Positions 5,290 through 61,921 of a stretch of DNA of 64,000 nt are shown in pieces (position 1 is the first letter of the stretch; each line of letters begins with the position of its first letter). The position numbers were made by a program, and so were the translations under genes. The DNA comes from Tomocerus qinae (taxonomy: Eukaryota; Arthropoda; Collembola; Entomobryomorpha; Tomoceridae). The notes beneath the pieces were generated by a model, which worked only from the letters and a program-made list of their open reading frames with translations, ran no database searches and was not told where the DNA came from. The stretch is taken from NCBI GenBank assembly GCA_020055645.1, contig CM034549.1, forward strand, positions 25,317,930 to 25,381,929, in the 5' to 3' direction.

Positions 5290-6801
5290 TTATACTGCGA
5301 AAAGTAATAAAATGACATTTTCAGCTGCTGCTTGCAGGAATTGGAGCGGAGACTCATTATGGAAAAAATAGAATGGTCCAACTTCGATACGAATGGGTTT
5401 GCAGGATCGAATGAATTTCTGCATTGTAATGTCAGTAGCTGGATGTTGTTTCCAGGCGATAATGAACTCATCATATGCACGATTCATAGAAGACAATGTA
5501 GAATAAAACCAAATGATGGTACCAATCATGATGCCAACTCCAAATAATATAGCAAAGTAGGCGAGGGTGGGGACAATGGAGTAGTAACGAATGCTTATAA
5601 AGCTCCCTACTACGATCATACAAAATGTGGACAGTTTTATAGGGGCTGTAATCGTATTTCGTACTAGCAGATTGATATAACCATTAAAAAATTGCTGGAT
5701 TCGAAAAATATACATCGCTTTTGCAATGCGAGCTTTCCAAATATAAGCCTGTGTTACCCCCGGGAAGCCACTTTGCAATACATTGAAATCTATAAACTTA
5801 CTCTTAATAGAAGGGGAATGGGTACTGTAATCAGGTCGACATTGATTCAACCAAAATCTTGTACTTTGAATATACATAGCTCCAACTAGCAGAAGGATCA
5901 TACTGGTATTCCAACAACAGAGAAGAAGTTGAAACTCGTATAAAAACAGAGTAAAATAAACCCATTTAATTGCTGGTTCTGGAAGCAATTTCCTGATGTA
6001 GTAATGAAACGGCTCGACTCCTGCAACAAATAAACTGGCCTGGAGCAGAGGAACACTGTAGCCAGCATACAACAAAATAGCCATCAATTGCATATGTCGT
6101 TTGGCACTTCCTGCTTCTTTTGCTTTCTTTCCCCGAGATAGATATTTTTCTAATTAGACAAAGTAATTAAAATTCAATAATTACAAATTGGAACACCTAA
6201 ACCAATATCTATATAAGCGAGTTTGATTTTTTCCAAATAGTACAGATTCAAGTTCAGATTATTCCAAACATTTACTACATACTGCACACTGTACTTACTA
6301 TTTTCTATGTTGTGTTTTGTGAAAAAAAGGTGTTCGAAGAACGTTAACGAATGAACTAACACCATTAATAAAAAAATAAATACTACTTATAGCAATAGAC
6401 AAAAAAATAAAAACTTTTTGTTTTTGACAAAATAAAATGATACCTTGAAGAAGAAAATCAACTTTAATCAGTTGATTCATTGTTTCCCTGAGATCTTTTC
6501 TCATTCTGGCTCCAGTTGCCATCAAGCTGAAGAGGATACTTCCATCTCCGATGTATACAAACATGATGAGCATTTTAGTGATCTTCATGTCAGCATGAAC
6601 CAACTCGCGAATTAATGATACGAAGGCAAAAGTGACTCCCATACTGATATTTAGTAGTTGCCAATACCATCTGCGAAGAAGTAGAGGCTTGGGTTCGATT
6701 AGTTGTCGTGTTTTTGCGTCCCACTCGTAGGGAGTGCATTGTGTCAAGTAGCCGATTCGAAATACAAAACTGAACAAATTGAGAACTTCTGGGGTGATCA
6801 T
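5290..6801 (-). CDS. Gustatory (chemosensory) receptor, 7-transmembrane
   Basis: Two exons, 6801-6444 and 6149-5290, join in phase (codon G|AA) to give about 405 residues, the usual length for arthropod gustatory receptors. The protein has multiple hydrophobic helices, an intracellular loop motif YLSRGKKAKEAGSAKRHM just after the junction, and a family-like C-terminal block containing CKPIRIEVGPFYFF followed by LQFLQAAAENVILLL. Such receptors are ligand-gated cation channels in chemosensory neurons with an inverted topology; the ligand cannot be told. The insect C-terminal TYxxxxxQF signature is not seen: the frame stops right after the last helix, at GCA GTA TAA, where GTATAA could also be a donor into a small last exon that I could not place. 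Confidence 0.85.
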
Positions 6802-8897
6802 TGTCCTGCAGAATTTATCTCAATTCTCCATTTCAATATCTGTCTATGAAGATACGTCGACACAATTCACATACTCACACTTCGCCTGTGATATTTAAAC
6901 ATTTTAACAAGTAGTAGATAGTAGAACTATTATAACTAAATCTCAAACCTGTTTAACCTAAATCCTACAACTTGTAAAATAACATTTTATCACAATGATC
7001 GTGGTTTAAATTAATGACATTTTGAAGGTAAGTATTATAATTAGATGGCTATTGAATGCAGATAATCCGTGGTTGGATTAAAAAAATGCTTTAGCTGCAT
7101 AAATAATTAATACTGGGTTATGGTTGTTTATGATGATAGGTATATGAAAGAAATTAATGTGTTGATTTACTGTATCTACCTTAATATTAGCTAAATTCCT
7201 ATACAATTTGTCTAATCTCGAATTTTTTGGCTTGCCAAGTTTAACGTACAAATATCTAATCCAAAAGCTATGATACTTCTGGTCACGGCTACCAGTTCCA
7301 AAAGCATAAAACCCTAGTTTAGGTGCATAAACCAATGGCAATATATTCAACTAGCCAACCCAGAAAACTATGAATTCATATGCACGTATATTTCCCGTTT
7401 ACTATGGCTGAAATGCTGTCGGGTTGCGTATCTAATGTCGGGTTTGAGTTACTTTCCCCGAAATGGACACGGCTGAATGTTTTGTCCTTCTTCTATTATT
7501 TATATAAATTATAGATTTCATTAGACGCAAGCTCAAAATGCCTACCTATTATGCTATTAAGTTACTATATACGAATGACATTATCTTGTATACGTTACGA
7601 GTCTATAATGTCCCGTCTCTTTGGCTAATACGTATTTATACTTCCTAAATAATGATGTCAACTGAACTTTAGAGTAGTACAAATACCGCCTTTTACAGTG
7701 AAAGTGTCTTAAGAGATCTTCAGTTAATTTTAGAGTACAATTCTTAATTTATGGTTGTAACATTTACCTATTTGTGCTTTCCCCTTCTTGATGATAAAAT
7801 GGACTAGCTGAGAAAGAATTGACTAAGCCAACAGTATTATATTGCTTAAAGAGTCAGTGAAACTATATGGGTTGCAATTATTCATTAGAATAAAGAGTGA
7901 AGACATGTTCGACTGTAAAGGGAAAATGTAACGATCAAACTACTTAATTATTTACAAATGCCCTTCCTTCCAGATTCTACATGTTCAAAATTGTCCAATG
8001 TGTCAAACCTAATCAAAATGGATGCTGACAGAACCCATTTCCCTCGAAAAGAATGTAAATTAGTATGCACACATTTAGAAAAAGATGGACTAGTCTTTCA
8101 CGAACATTAAAGTTTACGTAGTGAATTTTTGGCTGGTTTGGCAAATGGAGTTTAGAGATTGTTATGAGACTGCAACTGGCTGTGGTAAATTAAATTTTAA
8201 AAATTGATAAAGCGACATACGGAAATATCTTAGGGGGGAAATATCATCGATCAAATCTTGATGATAACATTATCTTATAGTATTAGCTTCATTTCCTTTG
8301 TTTACTATGATTATTTAATGAATGTTTATCCACTAAAATGCCAGTAAATTGGCAACGAAGATTTCATAATAGCTAAAATTGATTTCCTTAATTTGGAGTA
8401 GCAATACCAGAAGTTGAAGTACCAGTTTTGCCAATTTATTTTTGTCGCATGTCGAGTGTTGTGTAAATGAATTGATTGCTACGTAAGTATAATTGCCTAT
8501 TAGGAAATATATGCATCCAGGTATTCATACAAATGAGAATTGTATTTAGGTGATTGCGAGAGCCCGTTTAGCTGGTGCTACGAAACTGATTTATTACGGT
8601 ACGATTTCGGTTAGTCAAATAAGGTTTATAAAAATGTTTACTTTGAGGTTTCACAAACGAACACTGTCAACAATGTTGAATAAATAATAATTCTTAAAGG
8701 ATAATTGATTGCTGAAAATATGATTACCACCCCTAAACCGTTAGAATACTGGTCTATTTAATTTGTATATATCACGTATAAACTTGCTACATGTAGTGGA
8801 AGCTGAAGTAGAGTTACACATTGTATTAAAATAATGATATGTTTCGTTGGTCTGTTAGTAAAGAAAAGCAAAAGCTGGCAATTAAACCATTAAAGGA
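6802..8897. other. Gene-poor interval
   Basis: No gene supported. One 90-codon open frame on the minus strand (7350-7078) is not protein-like enough and has no recognised relatives or splice partners. The upstream region of the gustatory receptor must lie in its low-coordinate part. Confidence 0.5.
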
Positions 8898-24104: not shown

Positions 24105-26942
24105 TTACTGTGCTAATCTGTCATGTAGTACAACTTTTTGCGGCTTAGGGTATCTCATCTGGGCTCCTACAACTGTTTCAACATTTTTGGAGGTATCATT
24201 TGAGTCTAAACCAACTTTGAACCTTTGAAATAAACTGGCCGTGAATAAGAAGACCTGATCTCTTGCCAAACTTTCCCCAGGACAAAATCTTCTGCCGTAG
24301 CCAAAGGGAAGAACAGCGTCGTGTTTCACAAACTTTGTTCCATCTTCATTTAAAAATCGTTCTGGACGGAAATTTTCAGGATCGCCCCAAATTTTGGGGT
24401 CAAAATGAATACCATATACATTGGCCGTAACAACAGTTCCTTTGGGAATGAAGTATCCTTGAAACTCAACATCTTCTAGGGCCCTGCGCATAACCACTGT
24501 TGCAAGAGAACTGTATCTCATCAATTCCATTAATACTGCTTCTAAATATGGAAGACTGAAATAAAACGATATAAGCATTTAGATAATTCTAAGAAACAAA
24601 AAATGCATTTTGGTACATTATCACTATTTATATTTCTAAAAATGCTTTTGATTTTAGGAGATAGAGCAAGACTTATAATATTGACTACTAGATACATGGT
24701 CTCGGTCTCCCAAGTGGTTTAAATTACCTACTGTATTCGCAATGATAAGAGTAAATAGTTATAAACCGACGCAAAGCTCTTGACACTGTCATATGTCAGC
24801 AATAAAGGTTTGACACGTTTTATGGTGGTCATCTACTTGGGCCAGAGCTATGAAATGTCAAGTGCCCGCCGTAGAAAGCCTGGCAAGCACTTGATGCTGG
24901 AGTGTCATGAGCTTTGGGTGAGTGAATGCGATTACTTGGGTTTATCTGAAAGCGAGGGCAGCCTGGAATCTCCAACAACAGTTTTGATTTCTTCGTGCAT
25001 TTTTTCTTGGACATCAGGATGACGAGCCAAGACGAGAAATACCCACGTTAATGTATAACTCGTTGTTTCCGTTCCTCCAAGGAAAATGTCATATAAAGTC
25101 ATAGCCAAATGGGACTCTGCAAAGTTGAAAGCATTAAGTTGACAATAATTTATTTTACAAAAGTAGATAATCGCAATACATAAAGCTGATTGTACGTATG
25201 TCGCATGTTTACATAATTAATTAATGAATTAATTGCAATTATTTTAATTGAAACAATTGCACTTATTTCGAATTAATTGGAACTATTTTGAATTATTCCG
25301 AATAATTGGACCAATTCCTTTCAAGCAAACATACATTGATACATTCCCGTAACAATCGAGTGTACCGTAAATGCCGCACGCCGTAAATTGCCGCAAATGC
25401 CGCACAAAAATAGTGCACATGCCGTAAATGCCGTAAACTAAAAAATATCGCCAAAAATCGGATTTATTCCCTGTCAAAAACGATGTCTTTGCTTAATTTA
25501 CGGCATATGCGGCATTTACGGCATTTAAGGCATATACGGCATATACGGCATGCCGTACATCAAATCAATTTACGGCGTGCCGGCTTTATACTAATAATTG
25601 CAAAATGGTACGAAATTGTGGAATAAAGATGAGGCAATCCTGAAAATCGTGTCACTAGTAATTTATAATTTTGAACACCGTATTTTTGTGCCTTACCACC
25701 GTTTTCTTTGTAAAAACTAGATTCAGCATCATTAGTTTGATTCATGTGCTCGATATAACAGTCCAGTAAGTCTCTGTTATTTCCACTTTGGAAGGTTTGC
25801 TTGTGAGTTGATATAACCTCTTTTAAAAAATTATGGACAGGTAAATTATTCCTATGATAAGCATTCAAGCCAGAATATTCAGGTATCATTTTTGTAAGCC
25901 GTGGGAAACATATCAGTAATCCCATCATTTTTAAGGATTCCATATTTCTATAGCCAAAAATAAAAACAAGTTACACCAATTCATTCATTTTACTGGTATT
26001 ATAATTTAAAAATTAATAAATGTATTACGCTGTCAGATGGTGTATAAGATTTTGCATCTTTGTCTCGGATTGGGAATATCGTTCGCCAGCAACAATTGTC
26101 CACAATGCATTGAAAACAGCAATATTGAATCGGTCATTAATTAAAATGGGTTTGTTAACATCTTTTCTCAAGCTTTCGGTAAGTTCTTTAACCTCTTCAT
26201 GGACCAGAGACTCCATTGACTTTTTACCGAACCCAAAATCTCGAAGTGTTTTCAATACAAACCTCCGTTGTTCCATCCATGCTTTCCCTTCCGTGATTAT
26301 GATTCCTATCATTGGATGAAAGATAAATGAGCACAAAATATACGAAATGGTTGTTATATATTTTTCATATACTACAGCATGATATTATTTTACAGCCTAA
26401 CAAACATGTATAATATTATGCCTATTTTATACCCTTAGGCAATCCAGTCTCAGGTTCCATGAAATGTAGAAGTTGTGGTCTTCCGCCCATATTAGTATGG
26501 CTAAACAGTTCTTTAACTACCTTGGGATCATGAAGTACGACAGTTCTGTAATATTAACTTATCATTAAATATATATATTTTTATGGTCAACGCAATTTGT
26601 GTAGTAAATATTGCTTAAAATCAAGATTTAGTATGAATGAAGAAATTGTTCTTACTTTAAACTACCAAGATCAATCGCAAAAATATCTCCATATTTTTCT
26701 TTGATTTTTAAGTAATCAATATGTGGATCCGGACTCAATTGAAACATATTTCCAAAAATGGGCCATGAGTATGGACCTTCAAAATTTTAAACAATTACAA
26801 TAAGGCTTGAAAGAACGTAATTTGAATTTTAGATAAAATATTACTAATTACCTGAAGGGTAATTCTTTGGTCTTCCTTTCTTGCCCAAATAAAAAACAAG
26901 GAAAATGAAAGAAATGAAGAATATGACAAACGACACGATCAT
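24105..26942 (-). CDS. Cytochrome P450, clan 2 (copy A)
   Basis: Seven exons, 26942-26852, 26776-26656, 26545-26433, 26305-26029, 25947-25697, 25116-24936 and 24555-24105, sum to 1485 bases and 494 residues. It opens with a membrane anchor (about residues 2-20) and the GKKGRPKNYPSGPYSWP hinge. Landmarks are WMEQRR (helix C WxxxR), GGTETTS (helix I oxygen-binding groove), ELMR (ExxR, helix K), NFRPERF and the haem loop FGYGRRFCPGE with the ligand cysteine. It is an ER-bound monooxygenase needing NADPH-P450 reductase; the substrate cannot be inferred. It is very close to copies B and E. Intron 5 is enlarged by a GCCGTAAAT-rich repeat, and a retroelement now sits between its start codon and its ancestral upstream region. 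Confidence 0.93.
25360..25590. repeat. GCCGTAAAT/ATTTACGGC inverted repeat block in a P450 intron
   Basis: Within intron 5 of P450 copy A, many short units of GCCGTAAATGCCGCA type on the left are followed, after a spacer, by the complementary units TTTACGGCATATGCGGCAT on the right. The block can fold on itself. The homologous intron of copies B and E lacks it, so it was inserted after duplication. It is probably a foldback-type or satellite-derived element. Confidence 0.65.
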
Positions 26943-27001
26943 TTTTATCAAATACCTACTACAATATGTACCAATATGATATGAATATAGTTTCTTGTGG
27001 T

Positions 27002-27340
27002 ATAATTATATGATTAAACGAACGAACGTGACGTTCGATCTGAATTATGTAAGAGTCTCGCCTGAAAACCTCATAATAATCTAATAAAGTAGTCTCTCCT
27101 GTAGAGGTCGTTCGTCCACTATATTTTAAAGCCCAAAAGCTAAAAAATCTTCCCAATTCCGACTATGAGCCCGCTCTACCACTCTTTGTTTCTCATTCTT
27201 TTAAAGAGTTTTTCGTCCATATTTTGGGCGGGTAATGAAAATATTCTTTTCATTTAGGGAGGGTATTATGAGGTTTTCAGGCGAGACTCTTACATAATTC
27301 AGATCGAACGTCACGTTCGTTCGTTTAATCATATAATTAT
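27002..27340. repeat. 77-bp perfect inverted repeat with retroelement-end sequence in the loop
   Basis: Arms 27002-27078 and 27264-27340 are exact reverse complements, beginning ATAATTATATGATTAAACGA. Each arm contains AATTATGTAAGAGTCTCGCC, the terminal motif of the adjoining DIRS-like element, and the loop carries sequence matching the inner part of that element's right end (the CTCTCCTGTAGAGGTCGTTC region). It appears to be a small deleted relative of, or a by-product of, the neighbouring element. Confidence 0.7.
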
Positions 27341-30300
27341 GTAAGAGTCTCGCCCTCTACCTCATAATAATCTAATAAAGTAGATGTTTAAAGCTAAACG
27401 AAAAACTGTAACAGTTGCTGCGAGTGAAATGTGAGATACATAGTTTATTATATTATATAGGTATGTTACATGAATTAATTATGCAATTAGATTTCCTTGT
27501 TTGTGTTATACTATGTTAAATATTGAATTAGCGAAAGTACAAGGATTGACAATAGGTAAATTATAAAAATTTACAAAAACGGAAGAATTTTGTGACCATC
27601 CGGCTTTCTTCCGAATTTCTTCGATAGAAATACCTTTTTTATATGCTAATGATGTAGCTGCATGTCGACAACTATGGCTGCCAAATTCACTACTTATCCC
27701 TGCTTTTGATAAAACTGATTTCACCCAACGACTTAATGTCTGAGATCCCACTTTCTTGTGAGGTTTGGTTACTCCCAAAAAATAAGTATTGCTCACTATT
27801 TCTGATTGAAGATGTGCGAGAAACGTATTCCAGCAATAAATTGGCAACACATAATTCGGGTTGATCTTTAAATTTAGGTAAAATTAGCAAAGGCTGTGAT
27901 TTGCCAGGAGCACTAGTTTTAATTTTATCTGAAATAAATATTTCTAATCTATCATCGTGATAAGAAATATGGTCTAACTTAATGCACGATATAGTCTGTA
28001 TCCTGTGAGCGGTGATCAGTGCTAGGGTAGTAACTAATTTTTCTGAGAGTTGAATCAACGATAGCGTTTGCAAAGGCCACCATTTACGGAGAAAAGTAAT
28101 GACTATAGTTGGGTCCCAAGTATAATCATATTTTGGTTTTGGAGGTCTCCGGTTTGCAATACCTTTCATTAGTCGAGTAATTACCGGATGCTTCCCTACT
28201 GCATAACCGTCAATATCCAATAATAAAAGAGATAAGGCTGATCTTGGTGTTAAGATTGTTGTAACCAGTATTGTTGGTTGTCAACAGGGCTAAAACTTTG
28301 TTACTTCCGGTACGGAAGCGTTGAATGGATTTATAATTTCTTCTTGGCAAAAATTCATCCACTTATTAAATGTTGAGTTGTATTGTTTCCACGAGGAAAT
28401 TGAGAGTGAGTTTAAGATTATATCTGTAGCATCTTCGCCCACTCCACGGTCTAAAAATGCTTGCTTGACAAGACTCCTGCCATCAGTGTAATTGTATTGG
28501 CTAACGGGTGCGACCTATTGCCAAAAGTTAGATTATTTTTATTAGGTTTAATGAATACGATGTCTCCAACCAGTAACTTGAAATACAAAGGAAACCACGA
28601 CTGATTTTCCCAGTATGGGGCTACTACGATCCCCATTGCTCTATCGGTTTGAATTTTCTTAAGAACTCGTAACACCATATTAAAAGGTGGAAACGCATAG
28701 AAATTTAAATCGCCCCAGTACTGGGTAAAAGCATTTACTTTGTATGCTAAAGGGTCTGGTTTCCACGACATGTATTTTTTACACTTAGCATTACTTATGG
28801 AAGCAAATAAATCCACAGAAGGATTTCCCAATATCTTTGCTATTTTTGTAAAACCTTTGGTACTCAAAGACCATTCAGTTTCAGTAAACAGTTTTCTAGA
28901 TTCCATATCTGCTAGAATGTTTTTGGATGATGGTATATACGTAGCAAAAATCCAAATATTGTTACATTCACAAAAGTTCCAAATTTTACAGGTTATGTCA
29001 TGTAAATGGGAATATCTAACACCACCCATACGGTTTATGTAACTTATAGCAGTTGTATTGTCTATGTACAATAATATTTGTGCATTTCTTATTCCCTTCG
29101 CAAAGCTCGTAAGAGCATAATATGCTGCTAGTAGTTCCAAATAGTTTATGTGAAATTTTCTTTCTTTTTCAGACCATAAATTTCCTATAGACTTATTGTT
29201 ACACGCCGCACCCCATCCAGTGGTTGATGCGTCGGAATAGATCTCTATCTGATATGAATCAGATCGAATAGGGCCAACAGCTGTTCTGACATTGTTTACC
29301 CACCATTTAATATCTAAAACAACAGCTTCATCCAATGCAATTTCGACTGAATAGTTATTTCTATCAGGTAACAATGCTAAAAATTTCTTCCTTTCTAACT
29401 TTTTGGTATATAACATTCCATATGGTACGGCTGGGGTAGATGCTATCAAAACTACCGATGAACTCTGATAATTCTAATGCCGTGCATTTTTTCCTTCGTA
29501 AGAGTGAACCACACATTTTATAAATTTGTTCCCTTTTCTTCTCAGGTAATGTTATAGTCATATCATTTGTTTTGAATATGAATCCTAGAAATTGTATTGA
29601 TTTACTTGGTTCAATTTCAGATTTTTCATAATTCACTACTAAACCTAAGCGTGAAAACAATTCTAGAATATAGTTCATTGTTTCTCTGGCCTTCATTTTG
29701 CTTTCTGATAACGATAAGAGATCGTCTAGGTATATTACAATAAGAATTCCCATCTTTCTTTATAAGAGCCACGACTGGCTTCATCATTTTAGTGAACACC
29801 CTTGGTGCTGAACACAAACCAAATGGCAAACATGTAAATTCATATAGCTGGCTTTTCCAAATAAATCTTAGATATTTCCTGTCCTTAGATCTAATCGGTA
29901 TGAGATAATATGCGTCCTTCAAATCAATTTTGTTTAAATACCATTCTGGTTGCATTATTTGCAAAACCGTTTTATGATTTTCCATTTTAAACTTTCTCTT
30001 TGATTACGAATGTGTTAAGTTCTTTTAAATTAAATATGAACCTATGAGACCCGTCAGGTTTCGGGACAAGAAATATATTTGATAGAAACTGGTCGTGTTC
30101 AGGATGGCATGGTTTAATTGCCCCTTTAGCTAGTAATTCATTAATTGAATTCTGCATATTTTTCTCCTCGCTGGGACTAAGTGTAGGAGAAATGGGTAAG
30201 TTCGACTGAACTGGTTTTGCACTGAAAGGAATAGAATATCCCTTGATAATACTCATTATTACTTGATCAGCACCAATTTCTTTCCATTTGTTTGAGAAAT

Positions 30301-31791
30301 GTTTTAGCCTTCCTGCATGAATACTTACCTCAGCTGTCAACGGTGATACTTTCTCTGCCCGCTCCGTTCCCCGTCTTTTTGCTGGGTGCTTGGAACGGGC
30401 GTTTGTAGTTTAAAGATCGGGAAGGCTGAGACCCACTTGTGGATTTTGTAGAACTTCTATAATATTTGTCGTTTGATTTTGTAGTTGTGACGGAAGTCTT
30501 TCGGCTCTCGGTGGGTTGGATTAAGTCTTTTCCCACTTTAGCGATACTGCGAGCAGATTTTATTTTCTCGCTAAGGTCCGATCCAAAGAGTAAAGGGTAT
30601 AAGGGTACTTCAGAGAGTACGTCTTTCATCACTGGGTCCTTAATGTTTGATTGAACTGATTTGCGTCTAATTTTCGACACGAAATGCTGTGCACTTACCA
30701 GATTTCTTCCGGAAATGCTGAGTTGTTCAATTAATTTTGAACGGTCAATCTCTTTGTTATTTAACAATGAAGTTAAAATATTTCCGATACCTGTTATAGA
30801 GATAGTCAGGTTTGATTGAACCTTACGTAGATTAGTATCTCTGTCCCGAGCGTAAGAAGGAATTGCTTGATTTAATTCTGGGTTTAGAAGGGGCTCATTG
30901 TATTGCCCATTTACCGGTAAAGGATTATCCTTTGCAATCTTTTCTCTTTCTTCCTTAGAAATCCCGTTTTGAGCAATCGCATTCCAACGAACCGAAATTT
31001 TTTCATGTAAGGCCTTACCTTTTTTCTCCTCAGCCAAAGGGTTGGCTCCCAATAAATTTTCGGCTTCGTCGTCAGACGGGTCTATAATTAAGACCTGCTC
31101 GTCATTTTTGTCAGATGTTTCGGCTATAACTATGCCTTCGTTAGCTCCAATTGGGCTACTGACCTTACGCTCTGATCTTCTGGTGCTATTTGAATCACTT
31201 TTATGACTGGAGTTACTCTCACTGCTACTGGACCGTTGATTTCTTGAGCGGCCGAGAGGAGAACGTGATATATCTACGTGAGATGATCGATGACCCCTGG
31301 AAGAATCTTTATTCAGATGTTCTTCCATACGTTTTGATAATTTTTGTAACGAGTTTTCGATTTTGTCCAGCCGTGATGACCGCTTTTTCTTTTTTCTTTT
31401 CCTTTTGCGGTCTTCCGAAGAACTGGATGAGCTGGACCTAGTCATCTTGCTAGAAACTTCAAATATCGATATAATAGTATAATATTATAACTTTAATATT
31501 GATTCAATGTGATACAATGTGATTAATATATTTATTACCACTACCGTATTTTACCAACGATTTCACTTTATCAAAATTTTTGATAATACTCGCAGCTTGG
31601 TTTATTTCGATGCGAATCGAACGACCACTAAAAGAAGAATGAGAAACAAAGAGTGGTAGAGCGGGCTCATAGTCGGAATTGGGAAGATTTTTTAGCTTTT
31701 GGGCTTTAAAATATAGTGGACGAACGACCTCTACAGGAGAGACTACTTTATTAGATTATTATGAGGTAGAGGGCGAGACTCTTACATAATT
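27335..31791 (-). mobile_element. DIRS-like tyrosine-recombinase retroelement (fossil)
   Basis: A 4.5-kb element bounded by inverted terminal repeats of about 49 bases (27335-27383 and 31743-31791), with no target-site duplication seen. Parts, all on the minus strand: a gag-like protein with a Ser-rich, Lys/Arg-rich start (about 31445-30330), reverse transcriptase with the YLDD box, then RNase H (about 30340-28451), and a tyrosine recombinase with the SCRHAATS motif and a C-terminal Tyr block (about 28220-27506). This order and the inverted ends define the DIRS group rather than LTR elements with a DDE integrase. DIRS elements are known to overlap their frames. It looks almost whole, with roughly two or three apparent breaks; near-identical ends suggest a fairly recent insertion. 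It lies upstream of P450 copy A. Confidence 0.85.
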
Positions 31792-56230: not shown

Positions 56231-57710
56231 ATGGCTATGTCACCTGTGGCAATGTCAATAGATTATTTGAAGGACAAAAGCACAAGAAGGGGTGATTTGA
56301 ATGAGATTCTTGCGGAAGAAAATCTCGAAGGGAAGATCATCATTGTAACTGGGTGTAATACGGGCATTGGCAAACAAGTGGTTATACGTTTGGCGAAGAA
56401 AGGTGCTATAATTATCATGGCTTGTAGGGATCTTAAGAAAGCTGAAGATGCAGCAGAAGATATTAAAAAGATTGTAGAAAATTCTCAATTGGTCCGTCTT
56501 TTTATGACTGTTTAAATTTAAAATATTTCTAACACAAAGTAAGGCATAATTGACCATGCCATTTCCCAAAGAGTGAAGTATACAAGCTATACAATTATAT
56601 TAAATGCTCCATCAATTACATATATTAATGATGCTTGCTTATAGTATGCTTATTTACAATCTCTAATTTTATACATTATTACCACAATTTGTGCTGTTGG
56701 ATTTTGTTTGATAGGACCTAATGAAATTAGATCTTGCGGACTTATCATCAGTGCGGCAGTTTGTAGAAGAATTCAAGACAAAGTATACCCATCTGAATAT
56801 TTTGGTTAACAATGCTGGATTCATGGATGTAAATTCTGTCATCAAGACTACGAAAGATGGTTTTGAGAATCACATGGGAATTAATCATCTCGGACCCTTT
56901 TTACTTACAACTCTCCTGATTGATCACTTAAAGAAAGGAACTCCGAGTAGGTAAACTGGTAAACATATACCCAAGAAAATGCTTTGAATTGAGATGTATA
57001 TTTTTCATTTCATTGTATTTAACATATAGTAACATTATTAATGATAAGGTTTAATTACAGAATCGTTTCTGTCGCATCTACCAATATGGTAATAAGCAAA
57101 TTGGATTTCGAAGACCTTATGATGGAAAAAAGTCCGAAGTTTGGAGACGGTGGAAAGGAGCCTTATAATAATTCAAAGTTTGCAAATGCCTTATGTATGA
57201 CAGAATTAGGTAAGAAGCTGAGAGCCCAAGCGATTGACATCAATGTCTACAATATTTGTCCCGGGCTCGTTAAAACAGATGTCTTTAGGAATGATGATAG
57301 CTGGTTGAGGAAGAAAATTACTAATGCAAAGTTATGCGTACTGGGATTAACCCCAGAGGAGGTTAATACTTTAAACAATTATTTTATTTTACATTTCGAA
57401 GATTTTACAAATGAATACTACATTGTTAATCTGCTGTTAGAGTAGCGTGTAGTGTAGAATGTACATCCTAGATTGATAAATTGTCGTACAATATTTTTAT
57501 AATGAGCTGAAATATCTGCCATTTCAGGGTGCTGAGACGATTCTTTATTGCACTATTTCAAGCAAAGTAGCAGAAGACACTTCAAAAATGTACCGCTTTT
57601 GTAAGGAGTGGGAGCATGGCACTAAAGCATTACACAACGAAGATTTGTCAAAGAAAATGTGGGATGTTACTCATCAATTACTGAATATCAAAGAAAGTGA
57701 AAAATTCTAA
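56231..57710 (+). CDS. Short-chain dehydrogenase/reductase, retinol dehydrogenase type
   Basis: Four exons, 56231-56491, 56715-56950, 57061-57361 and 57528-57710, sum to 981 bases and 326 residues. It is a classical SDR: NAD(P)-binding TGCNTGIGK at about residues 40-48, the acidic/basic ACRDL segment that favours NADP, NNAG in LNILVNNAGF, catalytic Ser in RIVSVAS and the YNNSK (YxxxK) active site, followed by NICPGLVKTDV. The final exon gives a region typical of RDH11-14-like enzymes (GAETILYCTIS). It should reduce or oxidise retinoid, steroid or other carbonyl/alcohol substrates; the exact one is open. The open frame continues upstream for nearly 50 codons with no ATG, so 56231 was taken as start, with a second ATG two codons later. 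Confidence 0.93.
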
Positions 57711-58096
57711 GCGCAAGTAAACAAACAGCTGCGTACATAAATAATGCCTATAATGAGGTCACAAATAATGCACAATATACAGGTAACTTTTTTAAACCGA
57801 GCGTGACTAATTAATAATAGATAATTGGTAAAGTTAATTGTTTCTTACAGTTATTGTGGTGCTAGAATAAGTAGTTATTTTTACTAGTTATTAATCTATC
57901 GATATGAGCGTTTAGTATTCCCCACTATTATCTAAGTACCAAGTACCTTCCTAATAATTATTATTACTAACGAATTAAATACTCTAGGTGCATCTTTGAC
58001 TGTTCTTTACATACACACTACTCTACGTGATACGAGACAACGTGAAATTTTCACTCGAAGAAAAGAAATCTACATGTTTCATCAGCTTAAGTATAA
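57711..58096. other. Between convergent genes; nothing further recognised
   Basis: 3' regions of the dehydrogenase (plus) and of the first selenoprotein gene (minus). No gene was seen. Confidence 0.5.
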
Positions 58097-58146
58097 TCCT
58101 TTTCCCAAGCATGATTATGTAATCATGTTTCCCAGAGAAAAATCAT
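58097..58146 (-). promoter_or_regulatory. SECIS-like element, type II, for the first PRXL2B-like gene
   Basis: On the minus strand about 245 bases after the stop codon: ATGA, then TTTTTCTCTGGG (12 nt), then unpaired AAA, then the perfect palindrome CATGATTACATAATCATG, then CTTGGGAAAAG and GATT. The 12-nt strand pairs with CTTGGGAAAAG using several G-U pairs, placing ATGA opposite GA, as in the SECIS kink-turn core. An AAA bulge followed by an extra small helix is the type-II form. Confidence 0.8.
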
Positions 58147-58388
58147 TGAAGAGATTAACATGAAAATTTTCTATTCAACTCGCTTTAATTTTTGTATGAG
58201 TTATGGCACAAGGGTGAATTGCCAATACTGCATTTTCCAGATTTATTCTAAAGTTATGATAATACGATAATAGTGTGGCTGTGCAGTACTTATTTAATAA
58301 ATAAAAATAATACGATTTTTCAACCTGCATTTAAATAACAAAATCGTCTTAGAGCATTTTTAAAATATATTATTAATATGCTAATTAA

Positions 58389-59521
58389 TTAACATCCATC
58401 AACACGCACTTGATTTCCATCTTTTCTAACATTCTCTGCTTCAGGTATGACAAAAATATCGTTATCTTGACTCATATCCTTCAGGATTGGGGCAGGGATG
58501 TTAAGAACTCGCAGGATGTCTCCAGTATTAACATGTTCGATCAAATTATCTTGTTTGAAGTGGAAAAGAACTTCTTCTCCACCTTTTTTAATGATGATCG
58601 TTCCACCATTCTGGAAGGTGTCTCCCTTCATGTCTCCAGTGTCTCCTTCATTAATTCCCTATACCAATAAATAGAAGTTCAACTCATAAAAAATATGAGT
58701 AGAAAAAATCAATAAGGAAATCGAAGGTTAATAAGGAAGGTTTAAAACATGTAAAGGGATTTCTTAGTTTTTAAATATTCATGTGCTTGCTCAACGTGAC
58801 GTGTAAGGACATGCTGATACAAATCCAGGGAAGCTTATACTTTGTACAAAAGTATGTCCTAGCTTTAGTTTATCGAATGCTAACATACACAGGCTATTTT
58901 TCTAGGACACTTGTATGATTTCTCAGAAAATGGGTTTTTACATATAGGAATAGGAATTAAGAAATTATCCATTTAGATATATTGTGTGAATAATGAAGGG
59001 ATTTTCTTGTTATGGGCATTAAGTTAATAATGCTCTTAATTATGATTATGAGTGCAATTAAAATTACCTTGATGATAACCGCGTATGCTTTTTTATTGAC
59101 CAGAGAGGAGAAATAGCTGAAAAGGGAATATTTCTTGTATTTTAAGGCCTTGTAGGTTTTCTTGTCTTTGTCAAGGTACAGCTCTCCGTTGAAATAGTGA
59201 TCTTCTAAAAAGTCATCTAGACCAACGTCGTCCAAACCGATACATACGTTCCTGATACTTCGTTCTTTTAGCAAGGGCGTAATGGCACTTAATTGCTTCG
59301 CCGCTTGCCGACAGAACATTCATCCAAAGCGACGGAGAAATGTGATGACAACTGTGTTCTCCGCCCACAAAGAACTCAGAAGTATCTCCTAGAATCAAAA
59401 ACTTTGTCTTGAACATGAAAATTACAGAACTAATTAATAATATGGTAGTAAATATTACCTCTGTAGACGGTGGAAGTTTTTTCACAAAATTCCCTTTGAT
59501 GGCTTCAATATCGGATGCCAT
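58389..59521 (-). CDS. Selenoprotein, PRXL2B/SelU2-like (prostamide/prostaglandin F synthase family), copy 1
   Basis: Three exons, 59521-59459, 59388-59068 and 58658-58389, give 217 residues if the in-frame TGA at 59322-59320 is read as selenocysteine. The thioredoxin-like core reads LWAENTVVITFLRRFG, then TGA, then MFCRQAAKQLS, where relatives have RRFGCxxCR. The resulting U-x-x-C is the redox centre. Past the TGA, family similarity continues: VCIGLDDVGLDDF, DHYFNGELYLD, YKALKYKKY and, in the last exon, FQNGGTIIIKKGGEEVLFHF. PRXL2 proteins are thioredoxin/peroxiredoxin-like; PRXL2B reduces prostaglandin H2 and prostamide H2 in vertebrates. That activity here is inference. A SECIS-like hairpin follows at 58146-58097. 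Gene callers would end or split the protein at the TGA. It lies in tandem with copy 2. Confidence 0.9.
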
Positions 59522-60240
59522 CCCAAGAAATTTTTAAGCTTATATTTCTTTGGTATGCTCTTACTTGGCCTTCGTAAATGAAACTAATGCTTTGTCGCAT
59601 GAAACTTGCACAGCATTGAATTCGTATATTGAGGTATTGCCATACCATATACTAGGAATACCTGGCACAGTCGATTAATATTTGATTACGTTGTAAAGTA
59701 AAACAACTAAAATAATATAAATGGAGAGCTAAAACATAATATTCCCTGTTCCATGACCAAGGTTCTGGTACAAAAAGTATTTTATATTAGTCACATAGAA
59801 CGGCAGATAAGTCTACACTATTTGCACCAATAATACGCAGTTTTTATTCTCTAAATGCACCAGCCGTCGGAATATTTGTCTAGCAATTTATTGCAAAATC
59901 GCTCTAGACCTATTCCAAACATAACTATTCCATTTTTCTTGTGAAATACTCTGAAAGGACGGGTTGAAATTGAAAATTATACTTATTCTAACTGAATAAA
60001 ACGATCCGAACGATCCGATTACGTTACAACATTTATTATTAGAATATTCGGACAAAGAATTGGTTTTCACGAGTACAAAGATTGATGATACAAACTAGAG
60101 ACAATTTTATAGTTTAGAGGGTTTACCCTTATGGTATCTAAACAATATTTTGAAGTAAATTATTGTAGAGTAAGTAAATGCAAAATACTATTGTACGTTG
60201 GTATACGAAGAAAGTGTGCGATTAAGTGCCAAACAGCGAT
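59522..60240. other. Spacer between the two selenoprotein genes
   Basis: No gene. It contains a TTTATT (AATAAA on the minus strand) at about 60030 that could serve as the poly(A) signal of copy 2 after its SECIS element. Confidence 0.4.
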
Positions 60241-60287
60241 ATCATTCTCCCAGGCTTGACAATGTCAGTTTACCAAAGAAAAGTCAT
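60241..60287 (-). promoter_or_regulatory. SECIS-like element, type II, for the second PRXL2B-like gene
   Basis: On the minus strand about 540 bases after the stop codon: ATGA, then CTTTTCTTTGGT (12 nt), then AAA, then CTGACATTGTCAAG (a small helix), then CCTGGGAGAA and TGAT. The two flanking strands pair well, with G-U pairs, and bring ATGA opposite TGAT. Sequence and spacing match the element of copy 1 (TTTTCT-TGG-AAAC on one side, CYTGGGARAA on the other). Confidence 0.85.
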
Positions 60288-60826
60288 GAGAATGGCAAAT
60301 AATAGCACACTGTCTAAACCACGTCATACATAATACTGACTACTACCCACTTCGCTTAACGATTTTCTAGGTTCGTAAGGTCATCCGAGCATTTATTACC
60401 AAATAAACTGCAATTTTCTACAGTTTATGCATCGACTACTGTAGACTATACTTATTACCAATTATCTTTTGTTTGATGCTGGTAAACAGATAACCATTTC
60501 AATATTTGACTATAAACTATACCTTGATGTATCTATAATAATATATGGCTATGATACATACAAGTGGTACGCAGGTATTATTATAAAGTAATATAGTATT
60601 TAGTAAGTATATAACAGAATCACAATATTCATACATCACAAAAGTAGATTAGCGACATAATTTTTTGTATTATCACGAATATAAAGACTATTCTTACCAC
60701 CATTCGAATTCCATAGTTTTGTTCATTACAAAACGTACAATTTCTTAGCTCAATGTCCTACGTATATTTTTACTCCCCTAAATTATCTACATGCGTCCTA
60801 TAATATAGTAACGTCACCGTATAATC

Positions 60827-61921
60827 TTACTCTGACTTCCTTCTATCGCCATCATTTTCCAAAGAACTTCTAGAACCACTAGTGAGTCCCTGTGTGTCTT
60901 TAATGCCCAAAGCTTTCAGTATGTCTGAATTTTCAGCATGATCGGCAGGATTGTCTTGTCTGAAGTCCATCAGAATTGGAGATCCTCCTTTACTAACAAT
61001 TAGGACACCTCCGTTTTGCAAACCGTTGCCTTTCAGATTATTAGGAATACGATCCTCCCTCCCCTGTTAAGAAAATAAGTTAATGCACATCACTTCAAAA
61101 GCCCCGATTTCCAAATGACCTTGACATTAAAGAGTTAAGCTTGGTGTTACTGATAGATTTGCTAAATAATGTACACTAACCTTAGCAATGGCCGCACGGG
61201 CCTTCTTGTTAAATAAAGACATGATGACGGTACAGAGATTAAATCTCTTATAGCCCATAGCTTTATAACTTGCTTCGTCAACATCGATGTACAATTCTCC
61301 ATCAAAAAATTTTCCTTCGATAAATTCCTCCATCCCAAATTCTTCTAATCCTATTGCAATCAGACGAACATTATTTTGTTTGAGCAAGGGCAAAAGAAGG
61401 CTGATTTCCTTTGCAGCTTGCCTACAAAATAATCACCCGAATCGTCTCAGGAATATGATGACAGCAGGACTATCCGCCCAAAACGATTCCATTTTGACAC
61501 GCTATTAGAAAACAATTTGTTTACATCATTTCTCTTGTGCAAAACAAATAAAACACGAACATAATTTGTGTTAATGCTCTAATCTGTCCATAATAATGCA
61601 ATGATAGAGTTAGATAGAGAATTATGAAAGGTAAAAGGCTATGTATTGATTAATTACACTTACGGTTTCCAAAGTAGGAACTTCCTTTACAAAGTTTTGT
61701 CCGATCTTTTTGAGATCAACATTATTGGATTTTGAAGCTGCCATGGTCAACTGCCAATATGCCGCCGATGTTGTGAGTGTGAATGCAGAAACTGATGGGT
61801 TAGAACTGAACACAAGTCTTAAAGCAGTGGTAGCAGCCACAGGCTGGAAATGCCACAGTCGGTTAAGCTTATTTAGTAGACTAGCTTCTTTAGGTAAAAG
61901 CCTTCGTGATAAGGGAAACAT
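60827..61921 (-). CDS. Selenoprotein, PRXL2B/SelU2-like, copy 2, with possible mitochondrial leader
   Basis: Three exons, 61921-61664, 61501-61181 and 61063-60827. With TGA at 61435-61433 read as selenocysteine the product is 271 residues from the ATG at 61921, or 212 from the internal ATG at 61744 (context GACCATGG). The core is FWADSPAVIIFLRRFG, TGA, LFCRQAAKEIS, then VRLIAIGLEEFGMEEF, KFFDGELYID, YKAMGYKRF and, in the last exon, LQNGGVLIVSKGG, the PRXL2B signature. The extra 59 residues from the upstream ATG are Arg/Ser/Leu-rich with almost no acidic residues (MFPLSRRLLPKEASLL...), as in mitochondrial presequences, so mitochondrial and cytosolic forms may come from one gene. Exon 2 has exactly the same length (321 bases) as in copy 1, showing tandem duplication. 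The SECIS-like element is at 60287-60241. Confidence 0.9.

Follow-up and report, generated by a model that had tools for sequence, protein, structure and literature searches.

The closest described relatives of the two genes treated here are the SelU proteins of invertebrates. In its accessible sections, PMC3473315 reports that each of the three invertebrate SelU groups includes selenocysteine (Sec) forms, SelU3 being the prostamide/PGF synthase branch, and it counts 8 SelU3 proteins in 7 species, the 3 Cys forms among them all belonging to deuterostomes. All Sec-containing vertebrate SelU proteins are placed in SelU1 in the portion of PMC3316567 available to us. For arthropods, 20 predicted selenoproteins with SECIS elements and machinery have been described from the centipede Strigamia maritima (PMC4244043; SelU has 0 occurrences in its main text as accessible), and 7 selenoproteins are given for Machilis, together with losses in Astigmata, in PMC5330540, in whose available sections the words Folsomia and hexapod are absent. 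As far as their accessible parts go, PMC2375036 notes that unpublished ESTs of shrimp contain many selenoprotein genes, PMC2500217 treats the insect losses and PMC3840058 a tick, both leaving SelU unnamed, and PMC3965025 merely lists SelU. Literature searches returned no on-topic paper by title on selenoproteins in Collembola or springtails and none pairing PRXL2B with selenocysteine, which is no proof in either case that such work is unpublished. Only PMC3473315 was found for prostamide combined with selenocysteine and selenoprotein, only a polysaccharide review for crustacean SelU, and only PMC2375036 for arthropod SelU with SECIS.

Here we describe two genes, A and B, in a 64-kb window (the whole stretch of springtail DNA that was analysed). 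Judged from their sequences, they are very probably tandem copies that have diverged from each other, each encoding a thioredoxin-fold oxidoreductase of the PRXL2B/SelU3 type that is translated as a selenoprotein. They share with the Sec-containing SelU3 proteins in the accessible part of PMC3473315 the same branch, by best structural match, and the same Cys-to-Sec exchange, but they come from an arthropod, whereas the six genomes newly surveyed there include none. In the sponge pair SelU3_b/SelU3_c described in the same sections, one copy is incomplete and without a SECIS; A and B, unlike that pair, are divergent tandem copies that both keep the TGA and a hairpin. Like Strigamia maritima, as presented in the available text of PMC4244043, the animal of the window is an arthropod outside Insecta, and very probably it too has Sec proteins. 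Sec forms of the subfamily had already been reported from other invertebrates in 2012, and A and B add a further case to this known type.

In gene B, on the minus strand, a TGA at 59320-59322 stands in frame within FLRRFG-TGA-MFCRQAAK. This gene consists of three exons, and its spliced frame runs from an ATG at 59521 to a TAA at 58389. Exon 1 (59459-59521) opens with the ATG and closes at a GT donor in phase 0, exon 2 (59068-59388) carries RRFG-TGA-MFCR between an AG acceptor and a GT donor and was aligned to PGF synthase, and exon 3 (58389-58658) ends with the TAA of the spliced frame. Both introns, of 70 and 409 nt, are of the GT...AG type. The TGA, which we read as selenocysteine at the first Cys of a CxxC, is codon 44 of 217 and the sole internal stop of the spliced frame. 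As 173 codons follow it, the earlier note was right that the frame runs through the TGA for more than 150 codons with correct splicing.

With Cys placed at the site, the gene B product matched PF13911 (E 3.1e-19, 69.9 bits; Pfam cut-off 27), and the gene A product matched the AhpC/TSA_2 domain with 65.8 bits (Pfam cut-off 27). Against the prostamide/PGF synthase structure 9us9, which was taken as human PRXL2B by its entry title, the gene B product aligned with an E-value of 4.5e-37 over residues 14-187. The TGA fell on the first Cys (Cys44) of RRFGCVVCR, the replacement that had been claimed for it. In 9usa, the C44S/C47S mutant, the TGA column is one of the two residues of the human protein turned to Ser. 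The redox motif RRFG-C/U-x-x-CR takes the form RRFG-TGA-MFCR in B and RRFG-TGA-LFCR in A. PGF synthase was the sole close PDB match, and the name PGF synthase is borne by 40 of the 44 organism-named homologues among the best 120 of 254, a name taken from PRXL2A by one, P0074 (hand count). When the homologue P0003 was modelled with AlphaFold (pLDDT 92.7), the structure closest to the model was 9usa, with a target-normalised TM of 0.96. In this model the site, residue 47, is predicted to lie directly before helix 48-58, and the stretch upstream of it would make the first strands of the fold. In thioredoxin-fold redox centres, the site stands directly before a helix. Human PRXL2B (9us9) is thus similar to gene B in sequence and similar in fold to P0003, but has Cys at the site. 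The family named earlier, PRXL2B/SelU2, probably stands as far as PRXL2B is concerned, given the match to PGF synthase; in the accessible sections of PMC3473315 the PGF synthase branch is SelU3, and not SelU2.

The claim of one such gene was borne out for B as described, but the window holds two. Gene A (61744-60827, minus strand) lies 2.1 kb upstream of gene B and has the same exon layout, with exon 1 at 61664-61744 (ATG at 61744), exon 2 at 61181-61501 (321 nt, the length of gene B exon 2, containing RRFG-TGA-LFCR) and exon 3 at 60827-61063, where the spliced frame ends in TAA. Its in-frame TGA (61433-61435, codon 50) occupies the same alignment column as that of gene B. Both introns sit at matching places in the two genes and in matching phase. 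The two proteins are identical at 87 of 206 aligned residues (42%), and the split between them is old, since synonymous sites are saturated (pS 0.757, pN 0.384). For the 43 codons upstream of the TGA pS/pN was 0.705/0.355, with pS at or below pN in 1 of 2000 bootstraps; for the 162 codons downstream it was 0.772/0.392, with 0 of 2000. As judged from these codon comparisons, purifying selection is acting on both flanks of the TGA in the A/B pair, which argues for translation of both flanks as one protein.

Downstream of each gene, on the sense strand, lies a hairpin that we regard as SECIS-like on the strength of its motif, its conservation between the two genes and its long-flank folds. The scan covered both strands of the window and scored ATGA, a spacer of 11-13 nt, AA and a 3' GA that closes a helix; the script postdates the spotting of the gene B hairpin by eye and permits an apical stem beyond the AA. 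An earlier script without such a stem found no place in 56-64 kb and two weak ones elsewhere. The two top scores of the whole-window scan were these two hairpins, both on the minus strand: the ATGA ... AA ... GA core of gene B at 58097-58146 (score 6.7; folded with flanks as 58066-58176) and that of gene A at 60242-60287 (score 6.0; folded with flanks as 60211-60317). By itself, the motif does not settle the matter, because the third-best place, at 31105, scored 5.95, close to that of A. Dinucleotide shuffles of the downstream regions reached the hairpin score in 0 of 500 cases for B (701 nt) and in 6 of 500 for A (901 nt). When the two downstream regions were compared, the top local match was exactly the ATGA...GAT stretch (score 31, reached by 4 of 500 shuffles), and the distance from ATGA to AA is 12 nt in both hairpins. 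The hairpins did not appear in a BLASTN comparison of the same regions, whose best match had an E-value of 0.93.

The outcome of the folding analyses depended on flank length. With long flanks, which were picked after this dependence had been seen, the minimum free energy (MFE) folds gave z -3.26 for A (0 of 200 shuffles) and z -2.20 for B (3 of 200). Short-flank folds (78-82 nt) were no better than shuffles (A z -0.12, B z -1.07). The hairpin was missing from the MFE fold of A at flanks of 8 and 15 nt, from that of B at a flank of 20 nt, and from that of B when its core was held unpaired; in the favourable folds of B, its AUGA is shown as ordinarily paired. No SECIS was reported by Rfam, whether in the window at the gathering threshold or around the sites with E-values up to 10, and no tRNA was found within the 64 kb. 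For gene A, one poly(A) signal precedes the hairpin (60397) and an AATAAA follows it (60037). For gene B, three signals of the AATAAA/ATTAAA type precede the hairpin (58298, 58247 and 58189), while nearby beyond it there are only variants such as AGTAAA at 57885, an AATAAA not occurring before 57549.

We next consider what other organisms have at this site, an alignment that the earlier note had proposed. A search with gene B alone gave 2 homologues, and a profile of four sequences gave 254; the analysis covered the best 120 of these. Among them, 32 have Cys in the TGA column and 34 have Trp; the column is missing from the remaining 54, and no further residue occurs. The 44 organism-named records among them, sorted by hand, have Cys (24) or a gap (20) and Trp in none; the 76 other records have Trp (34), a gap (34) or Cys (8). 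All 34 Trp rows of this set are jgi, lgn or ena records without an organism name, as would be the case if a TGA had been taken for Trp. Among the 54 gap rows, 33 lack an N-terminus and begin 0-1 residue past the site; the remaining ones begin later or have the N-terminus joined past the site. Records that start MFCR come from Homarus, Penaeus indicus, two Daphnia and Meganyctiphanes, and in those of Crassostrea and Ruditapes an N-terminal piece is joined straight to PFCR. One ena record reads RRFGWMFCR; over 143 residues it shares 96.5% identity with a Penaeus vannamei record in which that stretch is missing, and over 127 residues 93.7% with the P. indicus record beginning MFCR. Most simply, Trp and most of the gaps would each stand for a TGA that gene callers came upon, and several crustacean and mollusc records appear to have been truncated at, or spliced across, the Sec codon itself. 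Cys was found in the named insects (except Ladona), spiders, a fluke and deuterostomes among the best 120 of 254, which speaks against a claim of wider reach; Cys is thus not confined to deuterostomes. The record of the dragonfly Ladona fulva (P0098) is without the site stretch. Two jgi records, P0061 and P0065, read RRWG-W-QMCR, with Trp in an RRWG context otherwise found here in insects.

Several readings other than selenocysteine have to be weighed against these data. Early decay of a gene would look like a single in-frame stop, so a nonsense mutation could have made gene B, and A with it, into a decaying pseudogene. We regard this as extremely improbable: the TGA stands in the identical column in both paralogues despite their 42% identity, pS is well above pN on either side of it, the splice sites are intact and the hairpin is common to A and B. 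That the TGA is a true stop, or that the product is a shorter protein beginning with a Met after it, is suggested by the ATG directly after the TGA in gene B and by the Homarus, Penaeus indicus, Daphnia and Meganyctiphanes records beginning MFCR. In gene A, however, Leu and not Met follows the TGA, purifying selection acts on the 43 codons before it, their counterpart in the P0003 model is predicted to make up the fold's first strands, and both halves are joined through Trp in 34 of the best 120 of 254 homologues; we consider a shorter product very unlikely.

The same 34 Trp rows among those 120 could be taken to mean that TGA is read as Trp, or as Cys, by a changed genetic code or plain readthrough. 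Yet Trp occurs in 0 of the 44 named records, where Cys is the only other letter seen, and TGA closes P450-type exons of the window whose sister copy closes with TAA. These last exons end RLAQ-TAA (24105; identified as p450 by Pfam), RLAQ-TGA (34902) and RLVQ-TGA (43268; these two identified by likeness). Because they end in TGA beside a TAA sister, TGA is an ordinary stop here and the code is standard, and we give reassignment or readthrough hardly any weight. Selenocysteine is thus by far the preferred reading of both TGA codons, and the hidden selenoprotein proposed in the earlier note is strongly supported, in our view to the point of high confidence, by the place of the TGA in the redox centre, the family, the intact frame, the second TGA copy, the SECIS-like hairpins and the homologues with Cys or an apparently misread TGA.

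The tree was built from 66 rows, namely A and B plus the 66 Cys or Trp homologues less the long Cys rows P0070 and P0046; the site was masked and the 54 gap rows were left out. A and B fell within an 11-row group (support 95/92) of 5 Sec-like rows, A and B included, and 6 Cys rows. Since the Cys homologues P0009, P0013, P0014, P0001, P0057 and P0104 belong to this same supported group, Sec-like forms are interspersed with Cys forms among close relatives. Counting Trp as Sec, at least 9 changes between Cys and Sec are needed on the 66-row tree, 5 of them forced by well-supported branches. A sister relation of A and B was neither shown nor rejected (AU p 0.385), and a quick tree of all 122 rows placed both in one group of 13 rows with support 83. 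On balance, we somewhat favor a broader picture in which TGA/Sec is the usual PRXL2B state in crustaceans, molluscs, annelids and nemerteans and Cys that of the insects and spiders seen here. The two states would have been exchanged many times, Sec would have been kept in two old tandem paralogues in this animal, and public records would hide the TGA by truncation, by splicing around it or as Trp.

Several other features lie in the window. A retinol-dehydrogenase-like SDR gene with four exons (56231-57710, plus strand) converges on gene B, whose hairpin is about 390 nt beyond its end; the three best matches of the SDR gene are all from the springtail Orchesella dallaii (327, 279 and 259 bits), and the next organism-named match has 221, so that this one gene points to Collembola, and away from an insect, as the source. 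An array of P450-like genes occupies 24105-54500 on the minus strand, with last exons at about 24105, 34902, 39075, 42472, 43268, 48171 and 52302, the first assigned by Pfam and the others by likeness. Retroelement-like frames at 27506-31484 (minus strand) have weak RNase H-type matches below the Pfam cut-off (region 26900-31700) and are accompanied by inverted repeats at 27135-27200/31635-31700 (66 nt, 100%, at the edge of the searched stretch) and 27002-27078/27264-27340 (77 nt, 100%); we take the element at 26900-31700 to be DIRS-like. Two long frames at 5290-6819 on the minus strand are without a Pfam match and possibly represent a chemoreceptor gene, which is a guess. Searches of viral contigs gave 285 pattern matches and no relative.

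From established eukaryotic Sec biology, the hairpin would act as a SECIS bound by SBP2, and eEFSec would bring Sec-tRNA to the UGA, which would place a U-x-x-C centre where helix 1 begins. By analogy with the family, the selenolate may then attack a peroxide or endoperoxide, the resulting selenenyl-sulphide being resolved by the Cys three positions further along, with thioredoxin or some other thiol donor carrying out the reduction.

Insects have lost most or all of their selenoproteins. The informative value that was claimed for Sec in an arthropod holds in so far as it helps to place such losses, but a springtail, though a hexapod, stands outside Insecta, and there retention is less of a surprise than it would be in an insect. 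It is as such a hexapod, with Sec in two PRXL2B copies, that this animal helps to place the insect selenoprotein losses. In addition, the site census points to a correctable annotation error, the crustacean and mollusc records apparently being cut or spliced at the Sec codon. Finally, that two diverged paralogues both keep Sec suggests that this residue is worth its cost in PRXL2B.
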